Shown here: positions 1,626-18,549 of the stretch, piece by piece
Numbering within the stretch: position 1 is the stretch's first letter
Layout of the letters: each line of letters begins with the position of its first letter
NCBI GenBank assembly: GCA_030247525.1
Contig: JAOTSC010000008.1
Span: 1 to 41,937 of the forward strand
Length of the DNA stretch: 41,937 bases
Source: a bacterium
Lineage (GTDB): Bacteria; Electryoneota; JAOADG01
Reading direction: 5' to 3'
Notes under the pieces: model-generated
Told to the model about the DNA's origin: nothing
The model's database searches: none
What the model saw: only the letters and a program-made list of their open reading frames with translations
Position numbers and translations under genes: made by a program

Positions 1626-4600
1626 TTATCGTAACAGTAGAATCTTCTGGGAAGATTGCCATTTCGCTCCTGCTGAAACGACAACGAAGTAAACGCCACT
1701 CGGTAGCGGTGTACCCGCCGTGTTGTTTGCGCGCCATGCTAACGAATGGAATCCTGCCGGCAATTCGCTTTGCAGCGGGGTTGCAACCAATTGCCCCATC
1801 GCATTATAGACCGCTACGGTTACATTTGCCGTTAACGGAATCGCAAACCGAAGATTGGTCTCCGGATTGAATGGATTCGGTGCCGCCGGATCGAGGGCAA
1901 ACGCCACTGGAGTACCTGAACGATACTCCCGCACTGCCGTTGTCCCGATGACAAAATGACTATCGCTGGTATCGGCATACGCTGCTCCGAATTCATGAAC
2001 GATTCGAATACGAGCTGTGCTTGTCATCGGACCCGTTACCGACCACGGGAATACGCCATCATTCGGTGTACCGTATTCGAGCAACTGCCATTGTCCGGAG
2101 GGGTATTGGCGATCCAAATAAATATTCACCGTTCCACCCATATTGGAGTTCCAGCGAATATCACGCAGTTGATTGATTGGCCAGACTTCACTGCCGTTCG
2201 GACTGGTTACGTGAAGAATCGGATCGGCAATCGTGAAGTTATTCGCAGACAAACCAATCACCGTCGGATCGCTGATTGAAGTAATACGCAGGCGAGCGGA
2301 GGTTGTATTAGCGCCAGCTACCGGCCATGCCTGTACGCCATCGTTTGCTACACTGGCAAACAACGTTTCCCAAGTACCGCTCGGATAGTTGCGATTTAAC
2401 TCGATTCGTACATTTCCACTCACTCCCAACGATGACCATGACAGTGATGGGATGCGAGTCTGGAAAATCGACTCACCACCATTGGGATAAACAATCGTTA
2501 TCGATGGATTTATGATATTGAAGTTCGCATCGGATGTATCGCCTTGAACAGGGTTGGTTGTGCTTACCAATCGAATCCTTGCCGCACCAGTAATCGTACC
2601 AGCAACATTCCAGGTAAAGCTGCCACTGGCGGTCGGATAAGTGGCTGACAACACTTCCCATGTGCCCGTAGGATAATTACGGTTCAATTCGACCCGTACT
2701 GTTGGGATTCCTAATGGTGTCCAGCGAACTGTCTGTTGCGTTAACAACGTCCAATTCTCACCACCGTTGGGACTCCCGATAAGAATATCCGATGGCAATA
2801 CTGAGAAGGATGCATTCGATGTGTCGGCATTGGTTGAGTCATTCGTGTTTGAAACGCGAATCCGACAGTTCGGCGATTCGGGACCATTGACGGTCCAGTT
2901 ATATCTACCGTTACTAATTGCACTGGTTACGATACGCTCCCAAGTGCCACTCGGATAATTGCGATCGATATCGATATTTACACGGGCGGTGCCGAGCGAA
3001 ACCCAATTGACTTGATGGACTGTTCCGATGTTCCAAGCTTCACCGCCGTCAGGCGCGGTCATTGTGATACCGGGTGTTAGTAAAACAAAGTTTGAGTCGG
3101 ACACGTCTGAAAACTGCAAGGTGCCATGCTTAGAAACACGGATTCGCGCATTCATCGAAGCTGGTCCAGTGACCATCCAAGTAAAGATGCCCGTATTGCG
3201 AATATTCGAAGCGATTGTTTGCCAAGTTCCAACGGGATAATTTCGATTGATATCAACATCGACACTATCGCAACCGCCGCTCATCCATGTGATATCTTCC
3301 GCAATCGCTTGCCGATAGGTCTCACCGCCGACCGGGCTGGTTACTTGAATCCATGGCGATTTGATTTTAAAAACACCGTCGGTAGTATCGGTGTATTGCG
3401 GGTGTCCTACCCACGAAATTCTCATTGCAGCACTATCAGTCGTGTCACCGGCAACTGTCCAGAATTCCGAACCATCGTTTGTCGTACTGGCGAAAATCGT
3501 TTCCCAGATACCAGATGGATAATGACGATCTAACTCAATTCTTACATAGTCAACCGAGTCGACTGCCATCCACCGCAATTCGCGATTCTGCGCTGCCCAC
3601 CATACTTCGTTGCCGTTCGGTGAACGCATTGCAATTACTGGCAACGGCACCGCATTGATTAGTGCCTGGGCATTGATAAGCCCAGCTCCTAACTGAAATT
3701 CAAATCCGGGATTCAGCGCATCTATGTTGGTGGCAGTCCCTAATACAAATTGTTCTAACCGATCATCAGATAAAGTTGGATTTTTCGACAATGCAAGTGC
3801 AGCGACCGATGCTGCATTCGGGCTAGCCATTGAAGTGCCATCCCAACTTTGATAGGCTGCAGGATTGTAAGCGTTGGTCGGTGTCGTCGACCAGATGCTT
3901 ACACCCGGTGCGCTAATGTCGATCCACTGTCCATAATTCGAGAAATCGGCTTTGATATTACCACCACCGGTTGCAGCAACCGCCATTACACCATTGTAAT
4001 TCGCGGGATAGCGCGGCGCGGTATTTCCGTTGTTTCCAGCCGCAGCAAATACTAAGCAGTTGGAGGCGCGAGCGTACAATATTGCATTTTGATAATCGGT
4101 GTTGGTCGCGGTGCCGCCAAAACTGATGCTGATAATGCGAGCGCCACGGTTTACTGCGTATTGAATTGCCGGCCAGAAGTTATCGGTGAAACCTACGCCA
4201 GCAAGACCGCCATTGTAAATACATCCAAATCCGGCACGAAGTCCTAACGTACGGATGTTATAGCTGGCAGCGGGTATACCTACACCGTTGTTGGTGCGGG
4301 CGGCAAGGGAACCGCAGACGTGAGTTCCGTGTCCATGAACGTCGGAGGGGGTGTTGTCGGGCGGTCCGTAGTCTTCGCCATCGGCTGCTTGTGCACCGGT
4401 AATCTCATCGAACGAGTGGCTAACAAAATCCCAACCGATGACATCGTCGATGAATCCATTCAAATCATCATCGACACCATTGCTATCAACCGCGGTAAAG
4501 CGACCGTCGCCATTTAAATCTTCCGCTGTATTCATTTGAAAATTCTGAATCAGATCAGGATGATCATACATGACACCGGTATCGATTGTCACCGCTAACA

Positions 4601-5171
4601 CCGAGTCGACGCCGCGCTGTGCATCCCAAGCCTGACGGCAGTGCATCGAGTCAAGCCCGTACATATTGCCGGTTGTCGCCCAATCGTTCGGAGTATGAAA
4701 AGCAAAAGCAATACCAATCGGTTCGGCTTTTTCAATGCCGGGGATATTCGCAATCCGATCTATCAAAGTTTCAATCTCTTGCGTAGTTCTCACAACGGCA
4801 AACTTATCATCGATTATACGAAACAGGTATGAACGATCCATTCCTAATTCATGAAAAGCCGGATTGCGTAACGAAATCGGATCATGGGTAAACGATGGTC
4901 TTAACATCCGAACGTTATATTCGAGCATGATGCGATCCAGTTCCGTAAGTCCAGTAGGATAGGAAAGGGAACCATCCGGTGCGCGCGTCATCCAACTAAT
5001 CTGCGCCGGCGTGAACTTCAACCACGCATTATTCGGGCAATAGAGTTGTTCTTCGGCCTGGGCCATCGGAACAAACAACAAAAGCGTTAGGAAAGCCAAC
5101 ACAGGAAAGATCATCGAGTGGGAAGACCGGCACAGTAGAAGAGAGAAATTCGTGCGGTTCAAAGAGTTCAT
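1626..5171 (-). CDS. Secreted S8 subtilisin-like protease with six Ig-like repeats and C-terminal sorting domain
   Basis: Predicted exported serine endopeptidase of 1181 residues. A signal peptide spans about residues 1-39 (hydrophobic 20-36, AQA before the likely cut). The catalytic domain shows D197 in IDTGV, H281 in HGTH, oxyanion N380 in AAGN, and S447 in GTSMASP, so the full triad is intact. Residues about 512-1085 form six tandem modules of about 94 residues, each opening with a PNGGE-like motif and carrying an N-x-YPxGxW motif; these resemble Kre9/KNH-like Ig domains. The last 90 residues are a FlgD-like/Por-type sorting domain (PNPFNPET, then SGVYFVV), suggesting cell-surface delivery by a type IX-like route. 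A GGAAGGAG Shine-Dalgarno precedes the ATG. A promoter-like pair lies at 5256-5284. Substrate unknown; probably extracellular protein degradation. Confidence 0.93.
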   Translation of the reverse strand: MNSLNRTNFSLLLCRSSHSMIFPVLAFLTLLLFVPMAQAEEQLYCPNNAWLKFTPAQISWMTRAPDGSLSYPTGLTELDRIMLEYNVRMLRPSFTHDPISLRNPAFHELGMDRSYLFRIIDDKFAVVRTTQEIETLIDRIANIPGIEKAEPIGIAFAFHTPNDWATTGNMYGLDSMHCRQAWDAQRGVDSVLAVTIDTGVMYDHPDLIQNFQMNTAEDLNGDGRFTAVDSNGVDDDLNGFIDDVIGWDFVSHSFDEITGAQAADGEDYGPPDNTPSDVHGHGTHVCGSLAARTNNGVGIPAASYNIRTLGLRAGFGCIYNGGLAGVGFTDNFWPAIQYAVNRGARIISISFGGTATNTDYQNAILYARASNCLVFAAAGNNGNTAPRYPANYNGVMAVAATGGGNIKADFSNYGQWIDISAPGVSIWSTTPTNAYNPAAYQSWDGTSMASPNAASVAALALSKNPTLSDDRLEQFVLGTATNIDALNPGFEFQLGAGLINAQALINAVPLPVIAMRSPNGNEVWWAAQNRELRWMAVDSVDYVRIELDRHYPSGIWETIFASTTNDGSEFWTVAGDTTDSAAMRISWVGHPQYTDTTDGVFKIKSPWIQVTSPVGGETYRQAIAEDITWMSGGCDSVDVDINRNYPVGTWQTIASNIRNTGIFTWMVTGPASMNARIRVSKHGTLQFSDVSDSNFVLLTPGITMTAPDGGEAWNIGTVHQVNWVSLGTARVNIDIDRNYPSGTWERIVTSAISNGRYNWTVNGPESPNCRIRVSNTNDSTNADTSNASFSVLPSDILIGSPNGGENWTLLTQQTVRWTPLGIPTVRVELNRNYPTGTWEVLSATYPTASGSFTWNVAGTITGAARIRLVSTTNPVQGDTSDANFNIINPSITIVYPNGGESIFQTRIPSLSWSSLGVSGNVRIELNRNYPSGTWETLFASVANDGVQAWPVAGANTTSARLRITSISDPTVIGLSANNFTIADPILHVTSPNGSEVWPINQLRDIRWNSNMGGTVNIYLDRQYPSGQWQLLEYGTPNDGVFPWSVTGPMTSTARIRIVHEFGAAYADTSDSHFVIGTTAVREYRSGTPVAFALDPAAPNPFNPETNLRFAIPLTANVTVAVYNAMGQLVATPLQSELPAGFHSLAWRANNTAGTPLPSGVYFVVVSAGAKWQSSQKILLLR
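1925..3635 (-). repeat. Six tandem Ig-like (Kre9/KNH-type) coding repeats
   Basis: Six degenerate coding repeats of about 285 bp lie inside the protease gene. Each encodes a PNGGE/PNGSE opening, a central W, a [NDL]-x-[NDQH]-YPxGxW core and an ARIRI-like strand near the end. Boundaries are approximate. One more copy of the same module occurs in the LVIVD-repeat protein at 33399-34988, which points to module shuffling among secreted proteins of this organism. Confidence 0.8.
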
Positions 5172-8001: not shown

Positions 8002-9234
8002 GTGAATTGCGTTGTCGTGTACCAAAAATCTGAAATTCCTAAATCGAAAACACAACGAGTAAAAAAAACTCGCCGGATTCTCTTCGATCCATCCGTGATC
8101 GATCGGGTAGAAGTTGCGGTTTTAGGTGTGTCGATCAATCGGTTACTACTACGGTGGTTCCAGCGGGAAGGTCGCGATTTACCCTGGCGAAAAAACCGGT
8201 CGCCATATGCGGTTTGGGTTAGTGAGGTGATGTTACAACAAACCCGGGTCGCCACGGTGGTTCCCTATTTTGAACGCTGGCTGCAACAGTATCCCGATGT
8301 TAACACCTTGGCGAACGCCACAGAACAAGCCGTATTGAAAGCGTGGGAAGGGTTGGGGTATTACACGCGGGCGAAAAATCTTCATCGGGCGGCTCAGATT
8401 CTTTGTGAGAAATATGACGGCGAACTACCGGAAACCGAACATGAGTTATTAAAACTGCCTGGCTTAGGCAAATACACTGCGGCGGCAGTTGCGTCATTTG
8501 CCTTTCGACAACCTTCCTTAGTCGTCGATGGCAATGTTGCGCGGGTGCTGTCGCGCTGGTTGCAAATTCCGGTCAGTTATACCGAACCGGAAGCGCAAGA
8601 GATTTATCGGAAAGTGTTCGCAACCATCGCCCAAGAGGAATCAAAAAATCTTCCGCAGTGGAATGAAGCGATCATGGAATTAGGCGCAATGGTTTGTACG
8701 CCAAGTTCACCCGATTGCAAAAACTGTCCAATGAAAAAACAGTGTGGCGCTTTTCGAGCAAACACTGTTTCAATTTTTCCACCGCCGCGAAAAAAAACGG
8801 AGGTTCCACATTTTGATATCGCAGTCGGTATTCTATTCGATGAGCAAAAAATACTGATGGGATTGCGAAAACGCGATGGATTACTTGGTGGTTTATGGGA
8901 GCTGCCGGGTGGCAAATGCGAACTTAACGAATTTCCGGAAACAGCGGTTGTCCGTGAATTCCGGGAAGAGACCGGTATCACGGTCGAAGTTGTCGATGCC
9001 GTGCCGGTTGTGAAGCACGGCTTCACCCATTTCAAAATAACGATGTACCCGTTCGTCCTCCGCCGGGTTGGCGGTGTCGAACAAGCCCATTCCGCGGAAC
9101 GATTGGAGTGGGTAACGAAAAATCAAATCACTCAGATGCCGCTTCCGAAAGCGACGAAGGAAGTCCTTCGCCGTATTGGATGGGATAATGCTGCAGTACG
9201 AGATAACCTCTTTACGAAGGAGCAAAAAACATGA
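8002..9234 (+). CDS. mutY: A/G-specific adenine DNA glycosylase MutY with a canonical Nudix box
   Basis: Removes adenine mispaired with 8-oxoguanine. The HhH-GPD domain has LPWR at residues 60-63, catalytic E75 (VSEVMLQQT), HhH loop LPGLGKYTA (152-160) and catalytic D176 (VVDGNVAR). The [4Fe-4S] ligands C232-x6-C239-x2-C242-x5-C248 follow. The C-terminal domain carries the FTH loop (residues 341-343) used for 8-oxoG recognition. Unusually, residues 304-326 fit the full catalytic Nudix consensus G-x5-E-x7-REUxEExGU, which most MutY C-terminal domains have lost. The GTG start at 8002 is uncertain: in-frame GTGs at 8095 and 8128 would give an N-terminus nearer the E. coli enzyme, and none has a clear Shine-Dalgarno. 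The stop overlaps the next gene by 4 bp. Confidence 0.93.
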   Translation: MNCVVVYQKSEIPKSKTQRVKKTRRILFDPSVIDRVEVAVLGVSINRLLLRWFQREGRDLPWRKNRSPYAVWVSEVMLQQTRVATVVPYFERWLQQYPDVNTLANATEQAVLKAWEGLGYYTRAKNLHRAAQILCEKYDGELPETEHELLKLPGLGKYTAAAVASFAFRQPSLVVDGNVARVLSRWLQIPVSYTEPEAQEIYRKVFATIAQEESKNLPQWNEAIMELGAMVCTPSSPDCKNCPMKKQCGAFRANTVSIFPPPRKKTEVPHFDIAVGILFDEQKILMGLRKRDGLLGGLWELPGGKCELNEFPETAVVREFREETGITVEVVDAVPVVKHGFTHFKITMYPFVLRRVGGVEQAHSAERLEWVTKNQITQMPLPKATKEVLRRIGWDNAAVRDNLFTKEQKT

Positions 9235-12200
9235 TGACCTACGACCCTCAAACGCAAAACAGTACTGAACTGATCGACCGCATCATCGAGCAATCCACTC
9301 AGACGCTGGAACTATTAACCAGCGACGATCACGACCAATTAAAAGAACTCTTGATCGCTGCTACCAATACCGTATTAAATTGGCGTCAAAAACCCCTTGA
9401 GTTTCATCGTGAGACTGTAATATCCGAAGTCACCGGTTTAGCCTATCGTTTATCGAATGCCTTGTATGAAGAAAGCCAATGGGATGCGTGCGAACGATTA
9501 TCGTTTTTGTCCTATCAATTAGCCGCCGCCGTCGATTGGCGGGAACGTGCCTTAGGGGCGTTGAAGTTGGCATTGTTGGCGGGAACCTCCCAACAACGGC
9601 TTGACGACCTTGACCGCTTGCGCAGCCGTGTCCGGCAACGGATCCGGCGTCTGCTTGGCGTTCAGGCATCGTTTGACCGGTTGCCAAGTGGTATCGATTT
9701 GAACCGGTTAGCTGACGACATTGTCTGGAAAATTTGGGATCGGTTGTGGCTTGCTCAAAGTGACGACGATTGCCGCCGAACGTTGTTGCGAAAAAATCTC
9801 CGGTTTGGTTGGAACTACACATTCAGTCATGCCGGTCATCCCGCCCGAACGATGTTTCGCGAACAGGCGCGGAGTTTTCTCTCCGGCGATATTGCTGGTC
9901 GAATTGCCACCGGTGAGATCGAAGCGGAATGGCGTGATTTATTCGATGAAGAGATGTCGGCGAAGATATCCGAATGGTCAATCACGGTCGATAACGATAC
10001 TGTAATTGCTCAAATTGGTGGCGTCGCCGAATCGCTGGAAAACCGTTTGACCCGCGGGTTAGAACGTTGGCTCGAATGGTGGCGTCCGTTGAAGACGCTG
10101 CGGGAGGGCGACCGCGAAGCGATTGATTTATTCCGCGAAGCGCAACAGAGTTTGTTTGAAGAAGATGCGTTACCGCGTGCGGTCGATACGTTCCGCGCCG
10201 CCTTCGATCTTGCTCCAAGCGATTTAGGCGTAAAAGAGTGGTTCGCTTACTCGCTCATTCTTACCCAGGATTATGTTTCCGCCGAGCGGTTGTTGCAACA
10301 AATCATCGCCGCCCGCCGCCAGGACTTTGCGACGATTGTTAATCTCGCCGGGATTTATGTTCGTACGGGACGAATGCAGGACGCTGCCGAATTGTTGTGT
10401 CCAGTCGAATTATTCGACCGTAATTTGCATCGCCGTCCTTATGTCGCGGCGGTAATGGGTCTACTCCTCTCGCTGAAACGTACCGAGGATTTACCCGCCC
10501 GCATCGTCCGGCTGGAAACAGCGGAGTGGTTGCCACTCGGGTTGTTCTATGCAATCCAACACAACACCGATCCGATGATAAAAGATCGATTGCTGCACCG
10601 CATCATCGATGAAGCGGGCTTAACAGTCGGTAAAAAAGGGAGTGACCTTTCCGATCCAAACGATGCATTGGTTCCCATCGCACGACTCGAAAAAGATTTC
10701 GCTTACTTCCAGACCGAAGGATTACTCGAAGAAGGCATCGCGCATTTCCGTGCTCGTACCGAGCGTTATCCGTGGTTCTGGGCAAATTGGCACTACCTCG
10801 GCAAATTAAGCGAAATGACTGGGAACATCGAGGAAGCAAAGTACTCGTTCATGCGGAAAGCGGAAGCGACTGCCTCGAGTAAAGCGCCACAAAAATCGAA
10901 ACAGGAAAATTGGCATTACTATCTCGAATTCTGTTTCCGGAACGAGTTGTACGACGATTTACGGGTCGGAATTCAAGGGGCTGCCGAAGCGGGGATGGCG
11001 GATGCCAAGCTTGCTCGTTACCGCCGCGCACTGCAATCGACCGAACCGACGTCCTATCAAGCGCCGCTCGAGTATAAGCCGTCCATTTATGATGATAGCG
11101 ATACTGAAGAAGGCGAAGAGTATGTCGCGCCGAATGCGAATGCTGGCTTAATCGGATTCACGTTTGCCGAGCCTTATCCTGAGAATACGGATTGGCGGGT
11201 CTATGCGAATCCGGAATGGCATGGCAGCGTTTCGGTACTTCCGGTAAGTAAACAAGACCCCGCTCGTCACGAAGTCGCTGTTCATTGGTCAACCAAAGAT
11301 GGCACACAGCCCTCATCGGTGACGTTACACTCGGAGAACAGTGGTATCGAAGCCGTGGTCAAATTGTATCGTACTGATCGCTCGCCGGCACCATTAGAGC
11401 ATCAAGGTCCGGTACGACTCCTCGAATTGTATCACGAAATTCAAAACCGCATCCGCCGCCATCTGGTTACGACACTACCCGGCGAAGTCCTCGCCATCGA
11501 AGCTCCTGCTGGCTTTGGCGTGAATACTCTAACGTCCGAAATCGCCGGACTCAGTAACTCGGTGCAATGTCCCATTCACTTGGTTCGTGCACCCGAAGGG
11601 ACCCTCAGCAGCGAGAAAATCGTAAAGTGGTTACGCGAAGTATCATCGAAGTGCTTTACGAACATCCCGCTTCCCGTTGATCAATCGCCGGCAGGATTCA
11701 GCCGATGGATCGAGCAACTTCGCGCGGCGCCCGGCACCCACACCAAGCAAGCAGTAGTGTTGCAAGGATTTGCCGAGCATTGGAACATCGCGACACATGA
11801 ACAGGTGATGTTACTCACGAGTTTCCTCGACTTGTTACTCAAGCTCACAGATATGCCCGAATTGGTTTGGATCGTTGGCAGTAACGACCTGTTTTACTTG
11901 CGGCGCCAACTTCCCCATCCATTCTGGCGGTCGTTGCAGGTGTTGCGGCTCCCCGCCATGAATGAGGACTTGGCAAAACGCTATCAACAGATCTGGTTTG
12001 ATGAACGCAAAGCGCTCTCTGAAACCGCCTCGACTTTGCTGTACCAACAGAGCGGCGGTTTAGCGGAAATCTACGCGTTACTGTTACGGGAAGCCGCTCG
12101 CGATGCGAATGGTTTACAGCAGCAGCGAATTCTTGCCGCGAATGTGTTAAGTGTCGCGAATTGGACCGCATCCGGCGCGACCTATTTCTCCGATTGGGCA

Positions 12201-12911
12201 CGGTTGCAGCTCCCGTCGAATAAAGTAGCGCGGATTGTGCTTGACCGATTGTACCATGGTGAGGCATTCAACGATCACGATCCGGATATCATGTATCTGC
12301 GCGAGATTGGAATCGTCACGATTCGTGACAACGTTGTGCAAATATCAACGCCATTATACCGGCCACAATTGGCAGGCGATGAAGTCGCATCCGATCCCAC
12401 CGAACCGAAATCGCATGCTGTCTTGTTGGTTGATCATGAAAATCTGTTCCTCGGTCTAAAAGACACCGCCGTAAAAAACTCGCGTCCCTGGAACGACCGC
12501 GACGGTTCGCGGATCGCCGGGATTGCCCATAAATTGATCGAATGGGTCAAGAAGGAACACAAAATCATTTCCTACCCATTAGCGATTGCGAATTGGGATA
12601 ACGATCCATTCCTTTATCACATGCGGCCGTATCAGGGTTCCGGGTTTTATACGATGATACCGGAAGGCTCGAAAGAGAACAGCGCCGACTTTATGATTTA
12701 TCTCGAATGTTCACGTCTCCTGCGCGAACACACGGAGGTGGATACGGTTGTACTTGTGACCGGTGACGGCGATTTCACGATGCTCGTCCGTTCGCTCAAG
12801 AGCCAAGGGAAGCGGGTGCGGGTACTGGCGGTGAATGGCAGTACGTCGTTGGCTTTACGCTCCGCGGTCGGCAGCGATTTTCAATTCATCGAACCATTGA
12901 TTGAGAGTTAA
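9231..12911 (+). CDS. TPR / degenerate NTPase / NYN-nuclease fusion protein
   Basis: A 1226-residue cytosolic protein I do not recognise as a named family. Residues about 1-600 are helical, with TPR-like units near 300-400 and 485-600. A charged linker (620-640) and a beta-rich stretch (640-720) follow. Residues about 745-1045 look like an AAA/STAND-type NTPase: APAGFGVNT at 758-766 sits where Walker A belongs but lacks the lysine, AVVLQGF (841-847) replaces Walker B without an acidic residue, LVWIVGSND (878-886) resembles sensor 1, and SGGLAEIYALL is lid-like. The C-terminus (1062-1226) is a NYN domain, a PIN-like metal-dependent RNase fold, with D1068 (VDHEN), D1153 (SADF), D1179 and D1181 (TGDGDF) all kept. 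AAGGAG precedes the ATG. It overlaps mutY by 4 bp and lies 9 bp before lutA. RNase activity is inferred; the target is unknown. Confidence 0.8.
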   Translation: MMTYDPQTQNSTELIDRIIEQSTQTLELLTSDDHDQLKELLIAATNTVLNWRQKPLEFHRETVISEVTGLAYRLSNALYEESQWDACERLSFLSYQLAAAVDWRERALGALKLALLAGTSQQRLDDLDRLRSRVRQRIRRLLGVQASFDRLPSGIDLNRLADDIVWKIWDRLWLAQSDDDCRRTLLRKNLRFGWNYTFSHAGHPARTMFREQARSFLSGDIAGRIATGEIEAEWRDLFDEEMSAKISEWSITVDNDTVIAQIGGVAESLENRLTRGLERWLEWWRPLKTLREGDREAIDLFREAQQSLFEEDALPRAVDTFRAAFDLAPSDLGVKEWFAYSLILTQDYVSAERLLQQIIAARRQDFATIVNLAGIYVRTGRMQDAAELLCPVELFDRNLHRRPYVAAVMGLLLSLKRTEDLPARIVRLETAEWLPLGLFYAIQHNTDPMIKDRLLHRIIDEAGLTVGKKGSDLSDPNDALVPIARLEKDFAYFQTEGLLEEGIAHFRARTERYPWFWANWHYLGKLSEMTGNIEEAKYSFMRKAEATASSKAPQKSKQENWHYYLEFCFRNELYDDLRVGIQGAAEAGMADAKLARYRRALQSTEPTSYQAPLEYKPSIYDDSDTEEGEEYVAPNANAGLIGFTFAEPYPENTDWRVYANPEWHGSVSVLPVSKQDPARHEVAVHWSTKDGTQPSSVTLHSENSGIEAVVKLYRTDRSPAPLEHQGPVRLLELYHEIQNRIRRHLVTTLPGEVLAIEAPAGFGVNTLTSEIAGLSNSVQCPIHLVRAPEGTLSSEKIVKWLREVSSKCFTNIPLPVDQSPAGFSRWIEQLRAAPGTHTKQAVVLQGFAEHWNIATHEQVMLLTSFLDLLLKLTDMPELVWIVGSNDLFYLRRQLPHPFWRSLQVLRLPAMNEDLAKRYQQIWFDERKALSETASTLLYQQSGGLAEIYALLLREAARDANGLQQQRILAANVLSVANWTASGATYFSDWARLQLPSNKVARIVLDRLYHGEAFNDHDPDIMYLREIGIVTIRDNVVQISTPLYRPQLAGDEVASDPTEPKSHAVLLVDHENLFLGLKDTAVKNSRPWNDRDGSRIAGIAHKLIEWVKKEHKIISYPLAIANWDNDPFLYHMRPYQGSGFYTMIPEGSKENSADFMIYLECSRLLREHTEVDTVVLVTGDGDFTMLVRSLKSQGKRVRVLAVNGSTSLALRSAVGSDFQFIEPLIES

Positions 12912-12920
12912 TCCAACGCT

Positions 12921-13643
12921 ATGAACGTCAAACTATTCGTACCGTGCTTTGTCGATTGGCTCTTCCCCGACGCCGCTTGGGCATGTGTAAAACTGCTCGA
13001 GCGCGCCGGGTGTACAGTACGATTCGATCCGAGGACGACCTGTTGCGGTCAACCGGCATTCAATTCCGGATATCCCGGCGAGGCGGCAAAGGTCGCATCG
13101 CAATTGATCCGGTTGTTATCAGAAGACGATTTACCGGTAGTGATTCCCTCCGGTTCCTGTACTTCGATGATTGAAAAACATTATGCGGAGTTACCGCTCT
13201 CTGATAATGATAGAATTTTGTGGGAAACGCTGCGCGGGCGAGTTTTTGAATTCACCCAATTCTGGGTTACACAACTACACGCACCGGATTTGTTAACGCC
13301 GTTTCCGGGAAAGCTCATGCTGCACCGTTCCTGTCACGGTCTGCGCGAAATTGCGGTAACGCAATACACTGAACAAATTCTCCGCAGCATTCCCGAACTT
13401 GAATTGGTGGAAAGCAACGACCGTGACGCTTGCTGTGGGTTTGGTGGAACCTTCTCGGTGAAATTTCCCGAACTCTCGGTTTCAATGGCGGATGCGAAAA
13501 TTGCTAAAGCCACCGAGCAGAAAGTCGAAGGAATTGTTGCAGGTGATGTTTCCTGTTTGATGCATCTTTCGACCCGGGCGAGCAAACAAGCGAACCCGTT
13601 GCGATTTTTTTATGTCGCGGAAGTGATGGCGGGCAGACCATGA
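12921..13643 (+). CDS. lutA: LutA/YkgE-type iron-sulfur protein of lactate oxidation
   Basis: Subunit of the LutABC complex that oxidises L-lactate to pyruvate. The 240-residue protein consists of two CCG domains (also found in glycolate oxidase GlcF and heterodisulfide reductase HdrB): the first CCG at residues 41-43 (TTCCGQPAFNSG), the second at 171-173 (DACCGFGGTFSV), with further cysteines in SGSC (80) and HRSCHG (138) that complete cluster sites. The ATG lies 9 bp after the NYN-fusion stop with no obvious Shine-Dalgarno, suggesting translational coupling. Its last codons overlap lutB by 4 bp (ATGA). No lactate permease gene is nearby. Confidence 0.92.
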   Translation: MNVKLFVPCFVDWLFPDAAWACVKLLERAGCTVRFDPRTTCCGQPAFNSGYPGEAAKVASQLIRLLSEDDLPVVIPSGSCTSMIEKHYAELPLSDNDRILWETLRGRVFEFTQFWVTQLHAPDLLTPFPGKLMLHRSCHGLREIAVTQYTEQILRSIPELELVESNDRDACCGFGGTFSVKFPELSVSMADAKIAKATEQKVEGIVAGDVSCLMHLSTRASKQANPLRFFYVAEVMAGRP

Positions 13644-17796: not shown

Positions 17797-18549
17797 ATGG
17801 AAACTACAGACGAATCGAGCGACCGGTTACAACGGGAAAAAGAGTTTCACAATGAAGCATTCTCCGACAAACGCCGTTCGTCGTTAGGAAAATTCTATCG
17901 AGTTTGCCGTTCGATGTACCGGGAGTACGAGAGTACGTTGCAAGACCAATGTTCGGGAAAACGTGTTCTCGAATTCGGTTGCGGTATCACGGGTAGAGCG
18001 TTTGAAATTGCGAAATTAAGCACGTTTGTTGTTGGAATTGATATTTCCGATGTGGCAGTGCAACAATCGCGGCAACAGGCACAACACCTTGGAGTGCAAG
18101 GAAAGACCGAGTTTATCGTGATGAATGCCGAAGCAATGTCATTTCCCGATGGTGAATTCGACGTGGTTTTCGGTTCGGGGATTTTGCATCATCTCAATTT
18201 GGCAACGGCAGCGAGCGAACTCCATCGTGTCCTCAAACCAAACGGTGTTGCGATTTTTACCGAGCCGTTAGGCCACAACCCGGTCATCAATTTATTCCGA
18301 AAACTGACACCGAAGTTGCGCACTGCCGATGAACATCCATTATTGATGCGTGACTTAGCAATGCTGAAACGACAATTTCCCGGAATGGAAGTAAGTTGGC
18401 ATAGTTTAACGACACCGTATGTGGCGGTACTGCCAAAGCTGCTGTGGAAATGGGCGCTGCCAATGGCCGAAGCGGCGGATCGGATGTTATTTACCATCCC
18501 TTGGATTCGCCCGTTGGCTTGGTTCGCTGTTATTAAAATGGCGAAGTAA
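17797..18549 (+). CDS. Class I SAM-dependent methyltransferase
   Basis: A 250-residue cytosolic Rossmann-fold methyltransferase. Motif I is VLEFGCGITG (57-66), the acidic ribose-binding residue follows in VVGIDIS (78-84), motif II/III are FIVMNAEAMSFPDGEFDVVF (106-125), and GSGILHHLNL (126-135) plus LKPNG (146-150) complete the Methyltransf_11 pattern. A C-terminal EPLGHNPVINLFRK segment resembles small-molecule or lipid methyltransferases, but the substrate cannot be read from the sequence. It is inserted between pdhB (2-bp gap) and pdhC (35-bp gap), an unusual place in a PDH operon. Confidence 0.88.
   Translation: METTDESSDRLQREKEFHNEAFSDKRRSSLGKFYRVCRSMYREYESTLQDQCSGKRVLEFGCGITGRAFEIAKLSTFVVGIDISDVAVQQSRQQAQHLGVQGKTEFIVMNAEAMSFPDGEFDVVFGSGILHHLNLATAASELHRVLKPNGVAIFTEPLGHNPVINLFRKLTPKLRTADEHPLLMRDLAMLKRQFPGMEVSWHSLTTPYVAVLPKLLWKWALPMAEAADRMLFTIPWIRPLAWFAVIKMAK

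Follow-up and report, generated by a model that had tools for sequence, protein, structure and literature searches.

STAND domains are ATP-dependent switches, and NYN domains are PIN-like metal-dependent nucleases. The locus described here raises the question of what a protein may do that joins a complete NYN domain to a STAND-like domain whose ATPase motifs have decayed. The gene lies in a stretch of 41,937 nucleotides, called the window in the following, from a draft genome of 3.6 Mb in 305 contigs. Its product, the window protein, gives the single match to the NYN profile PF01936 in this genome. The coordinates are collected in Table 1.

The first-pass annotation had read the gene as a single fusion of 1226 residues, and this was borne out: the open reading frame is intact and the same architecture was found in full length in two other genomes. 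The first, G001 (isolate SKW228, contig JAOADG010000008.1), is the sole other available genome of the window's family, and its full-length orthologue is 44% identical to the window protein. It was the sole carrier of an orthologue among the genomes of the same phylum that were searched. The second, G072, belongs to another phylum and encodes a full-length homologue of about 23% identity that also has an NYN domain at its C-terminal end. A profile of the N-terminal half of the window protein matched it with an E-value of 7.6e-38. Since three independent genomes carry the same full-length architecture, the fusion is no assembly artefact, and an assembly chimera was ruled out as its origin.

Table 1. 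Features of the window protein gene, its neighbours and two related proteins (window positions, unless a locus is named)
Feature	Position	Strand	Basis or remark
mutY (HhH-GPD and NUDIX_4), upstream partner in putative operon	8002-9234	+	Pfam; order identical in G001
Shine-Dalgarno sequence GAAGGAG of the window protein gene	9216-9222	+	sequence read
ATGA overlap of mutY stop and window protein start	9231-9234	+	4 nt
Window protein gene, fusion of TPR solenoid, beta-sandwich, inactive STAND/AAA+ (predicted) and NYN	9231-12911	+	intact ORF, 1226 aa
All-helical solenoid, residues 1-603	9231-11039	+	Pfam, AlphaFold, Foldseek
Small beta-sandwich-like domain, residues about 655-711	11193-11363	+	modelled strands, pLDDT only about 45-68
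Alpha/beta core, predicted inactive STAND/AAA+, residues 730-906	11418-11948	+	hhalign, model, Foldseek
Degenerate Walker A EAPAGFGVNTL, residues 757-767	11499-11531	+	aligned to DGIKRVGKTSL of G072
Degenerate Walker B (...VVLQGF), residues 841-847	11751-11771	+	aligned to CVLLFDEF of G072
STAND module after the core: helical bundle, then winged-helix-like end; residues about 912-1038	11964-12344	+	alignment, model
NYN nuclease domain (predicted), residues 1060-1226; catalytic D1068, E1070/N1071, D1153, D1179, D1181	12408-12908	+	PF01936, alignment, 2qip
lutA-like gene (CCG domain), 9 nt past the window protein stop, followed by lutB and lutC	12921-13643	+	Pfam; order identical in G001
G072 homologue, ORF of 1466 codons	L043:5589-9989	-	intact STAND Walker motifs and NYN; downstream of pfkA
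G142 STAND (AAA_16) protein, frame of 1481 aa	L115:5491-9933	+	STAND-profile match; helical repeats, long coiled coil

The window protein consists, in this order, of the solenoid, the beta-sandwich, a domain with a predicted AAA+/STAND fold (730-1040) and the NYN domain. Pfam recognised TPR_19 at residues 346-407 (E-value 2e-7, 31.6 bits against a cut-off of 25) and NYN at residues 1135-1216, but no domain between them apart from a weak TPR match at residues 495-526. In the AlphaFold models, which were built with family alignments, residues 6-603 form an all-alpha solenoid with a mean pLDDT of 81.8, and its top Foldseek matches are TPR superhelices. The solenoid extends beyond the recognisable TPRs. 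The helical part that had been described as TPR-like was therefore kept and its extent corrected to about 1-603. With its repeats in a modelled helical superhelix, the window protein is a TPR protein.

The region following the beta-sandwich had been described as an AAA/STAND-like module. Pfam gave no match here, and the iSTAND profile PF19995 matched neither the window nor the G001 domain up to an E-value of 10. When this degenerate pair was compared by hhalign with two intact STAND domains, those of the G072 homologue and of a protein from the genome G142, a probability of 92% was obtained over 285 columns with the P-loops in register. In the AlphaFold model, a P-loop-type alpha/beta core at about 730-906 (pLDDT mostly 65-92, lower in the helical bundle after the core) leads to a winged-helix-like tail at about 998-1038. 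Foldseek aligned the modelled region with the AAA+ proteins ORC2, RuvB and Cdc6 at E-values of about 1e-8, with low TM scores over the multi-domain query. Since the AAA+ part of the model was built from three sequences only, one of them an intact ATPase, the hhalign comparison is the more independent test. When the STAND region was searched against PDB sequences, only protein A repeats were returned, on a short helix, and these were rejected as a chance match. As modelled, region 730-1040 has the alpha/beta core of AAA+ proteins, a helical bundle and a winged helix, and an NTPase fold was thus found where the module had been placed (740-1050).

The ATPase motifs were compared by domain-wise alignments and by hhalign; a full-length multiple alignment with G072 misaligns the P-loop. 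In the window protein, the lysine and the threonine of Walker A are replaced by V764 and N765 and the acids DE of Walker B by Q845-G846, so the absence of the Walker A lysine and the Walker B acid was seen as previously noted. In G001, the Walker A site reads EAPAGFGADVC (K to A, T to D) and the Walker B site VLLTSF, with TS in place of the acids. The GxP-type motif is SGGLAE (941-946) in the window protein, SGGVYQ in G001 and TGGHPA in G072. G072 has intact STAND motifs (Walker A DGIKRVGKTSL, Walker B VLLFDEF, GxP-like GGHP) and is matched by the Pfam profiles AAA_16 and ATPase_2 at E-values of about 3e-5, under their curated cut-offs. Neither the window protein nor the G001 protein has a Walker A of the pattern [AG]x4GK[ST] or a Walker B of the pattern hhhhD[DE] elsewhere; the VGKK at 466-469 of the window protein is without S/T, lies inside the solenoid and was ruled out as an intact P-loop. 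Since these Walker and GxP residues are missing in both genera of the window's family, the loss is no sequencing error. Homology and the structure model support the prediction that the domain is a pseudo-ATPase whose ATP-binding residues are gone. The Walker loss thus extends to both close members but not to the third TPR-STAND-NYN protein. Since the ATPase is intact in the distant G072, the loss looks lineage-specific; a loss in the lineage of the window protein and G001 is the simplest reading of the alignments, its direction being given by G072 as the sole outgroup.

The NYN domain was recognised by PF01936 with 49.6 bits against a curated cut-off of 24.2. The modelled domain has a PIN-like fold (pLDDT mostly about 80-92), and Foldseek matched the modelled C-terminus to VPA0982 (2qip) with an E-value of 1.4e-7 and a TM score of 0.74 normalised to the target. 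An alignment was made of the three TPR-STAND-NYN members and twelve other proteins, and D1068, E1070, N1071, D1153, D1179, D1181 and S1206 were invariant in all 15 sequences. The C-terminus therefore fits an NYN domain with all the acidic residues expected of it, and the domain is a predicted RNase. The core acidic residues are kept in all three members while the ATPase residues are lost in two of them, which argues that the nuclease, and not the switch, is under selection.

TPR-STAND-NYN members were found in 3 genomes among several hundred, a sampling that is far from exhaustive. A homologue was not found in six other genomes of the phylum of G072 or by two further searches by phylum. Pattern scans of contigs from 84,980 species returned G001 as the only relative, and no homologue of the window protein was detected in viral contigs or in the phage and plasmid collections. 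Because so few members were seen across the genomes sampled, the family is rare or under-sampled. The G142 protein was ruled out as a member, since it has another architecture in which no NYN or nuclease domain was seen.

The gene order nadA-mutY-(window protein gene)-lutABC-pdhABC is kept in both genera of the window's family, apart from small additional genes that only one of the two has. Between pdhB and pdhC, the window has a SAM methyltransferase gene (17797-18549, plus strand) with no tblastn match in the collinear G001 region (L032). In G072, the homologous gene adjoins pfkA and is not linked to mutY, and most genomes of the window's phylum have mutY but not the window protein gene. Conservation of the mutY and lut neighbours hence holds for two genera only; the mutY linkage is family-specific. 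That the gene entered a pre-existing mutY-lut operon is unsupported, because a lutA signature was not found near mutY in the other loci of the phylum examined (about 1.5 kb flank). No MoxR, vWA or BREX genes and no recognised defence genes were found around the window protein gene, and the sole PADLOC match on the tested neighbours was to a generic subtilase model. The matching subtilase (1626-5171, minus strand) is of the secreted type; its Ig-like units are repeated, and a sorting-like domain (NPFNPET...) lies at its C-terminus.

The divergence was then compared between the window and G001. Identity is 50-58% in the solenoid, 35% in the inactive STAND domain and 38% in the NYN domain; for the neighbours it is 45% (mutY), 52% (lutA), 60% (lutB), 33% (lutC) and 81-83% (pdhA/B). 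Overall, the window protein gene diverges about like the adjoining mutY and not unusually fast. The solenoid is the best conserved part, and the scaffold is therefore under the strongest constraint, whereas the inactive STAND domain is the fastest-evolving folded part. As only three members are known, the constraint was estimated from one close pair.

Our best explanation, held with middling confidence, is that the window protein is a chromosomally fixed endoribonuclease of host RNA processing or surveillance and not an inducible, ATP-gated defence switch. The TPR solenoid would bind a partner protein or RNP, and the STAND/AAA+ domain, its ATP binding lost, would act as a nucleotide-independent module that binds or positions RNA or the partner. 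Together, the two would select a substrate or partner or keep it in place, and the selected RNA would be cut by the C-terminal NYN domain with the help of metal ions. We propose substrate selection because inactive STANDs have been suggested to keep a nucleic-acid-binding role as receptors (PMC8195603; see also PMC7159879) and, in BREX, to be paired with nucleases (PMC12839542). The conserved synteny and the ordinary rate, which is like that of mutY and unlike that of a fast-evolving immune gene, favour housekeeping RNA processing or surveillance over an inducible immune role. Against this stands the faster evolution of the inactive STAND domain relative to the solenoid, which would be expected of a sensor for foreign molecules. 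The calculated pI values of the domains all lie in the acidic to neutral range of 4.7-6.3, so that none is conspicuous as a strongly basic RNA-binding domain.

The faster STAND domain could also fit a conflict-system protein, in which the TPRs and the inactive STAND would sense nucleic acid or protein of an invader and trigger RNA degradation by the NYN domain in defence or abortive infection. In MoxR-vWA and BREX systems, a sensor role has been proposed for iSTAND modules, and a fusion of one inactive STAND with a HEPN RNase is on record (PMC8195603, PMC7159879, PMC12839542); the pairing of STAND with TPRs is typical of conflict proteins, and the distribution is patchy. We nevertheless consider a conflict role unlikely, since the neighbours are housekeeping metabolic genes in an order kept across two genera, without adjoining MoxR, vWA or BREX genes, homologues are absent from the phage and plasmid collections, and the overall divergence is ordinary. 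No support was obtained for the link with oxidative damage or with the response to phages that the first-pass annotation had suggested: the surroundings contain no recognised defence genes, phage and plasmid homologues were not detected, and the divergence is about that of mutY.

Two other explanations concern the activity of the domains. If the NYN domain were catalytically weak or a nucleic-acid-binding module, the window protein would essentially be a scaffold. E1159 stands where D is usual as the second acid of the middle motif, and G072 has ADRD instead of the GDGD loop, so some drift in the active-site loop is tolerated. With the core acids retained in all three members, including the two that lost the ATPase residues, we regard a mere scaffold as improbable. 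Little probability is also given to an altered ATPase whose non-canonical P-loop would still allow nucleotide binding. The segment EAPAGFG is identical in the window protein and G001 despite the low identity of the domain, and APAGFG resembles APAGYGKT, the P-loop of MalT-type STANDs. However, an identical run of seven residues is only weakly unusual for this alignment length, and both proteins lack the lysine and the T/S of Walker A, the two acids of Walker B and the proline of GxP. A functional tie to MutY, in which the window protein, co-expressed through the ATGA overlap, would act as RNase or scaffold upon oxidised nucleic acids, is very improbable, since the adjacency, although kept in both genera, is confined to one family, most genomes of the phylum have mutY alone, the G072 gene lies by pfkA, and the downstream lut and pdh genes are equally linked, the operon therefore being functionally mixed.

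Among known systems, the iSTAND and iSTAND2 proteins of the MoxR-vWA ternary systems (PF19995; PMC7159879, PMC8195603) are similar in their eroded Walker motifs, their proposed sensor role and their coupled effector domains. In the window protein, however, the STAND domain is fused directly to TPRs and NYN, with no MoxR or vWA genes and no PF19995 match, and a sister form with intact Walker motifs exists in G072. The inactive STAND fused to a HEPN RNase or to GT4 (PMC8195603) likewise unites an inactive STAND and an RNase effector in one polypeptide, but that system has a second STAND partner, whereas the window protein has NYN and no adjoining partner STAND gene. The BrxB/PglW/PglZ iSTANDs of BREX (PMC12839542) are paired with a nuclease effector as well; the nuclease is a different one, the window locus has no adjoining BREX genes, and the C-terminal helical bundle that is absent from BrxB-type iSTANDs is retained in the model of the window protein. 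LabA-like NYN proteins (PADLOC PDLC01154; VPA0982, PDB 2qip) have the NYN fold and the catalytic acidic set in common with the window protein, but the other NYN ORFs found, of about 180-830 aa, are unmatched by the TPR-STAND part. STAND proteins of the ATPase_2 (PF01637)/AAA_16 type with TPRs, such as the G142 protein with its helical repeat and coiled-coil region, have a homologous STAND domain; there, the ATPase is intact and N-terminal and NYN is missing.

Inactive STANDs and NYN RNases are thus known. Their combination, of which a sister with an intact ATPase exists, does not seem to have been described: the literature searched, which covered little subscription literature, contained no account of a TPR-STAND-NYN fusion. 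Tentatively, and with less than even confidence, we suggest that TPR-STAND-NYN proteins form an undescribed ribonuclease family that spans two phyla or more. In one lineage, the ATP switch may have disappeared, and an RNase gated in the manner of NLRs may thereby have become a housekeeping RNase encoded in a metabolic operon, independent of ATP and either constitutive or gated by a ligand. A STAND switch could then be compared with its natural knock-out. The intact ATPase of G072 and the dead ATPase predicted for the window protein and G001 make a natural pair, with which it can be tested whether an inactive STAND gates or aims a nuclease without nucleotide, as proposed for the iSTAND sensors of defence systems. 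Here, the STAND-nuclease protein is encoded in a stable metabolic operon and not in a defence island. Near the G072 homologue (L043), a protein of 1400 codons with repeated radical-SAM-like units was also observed.
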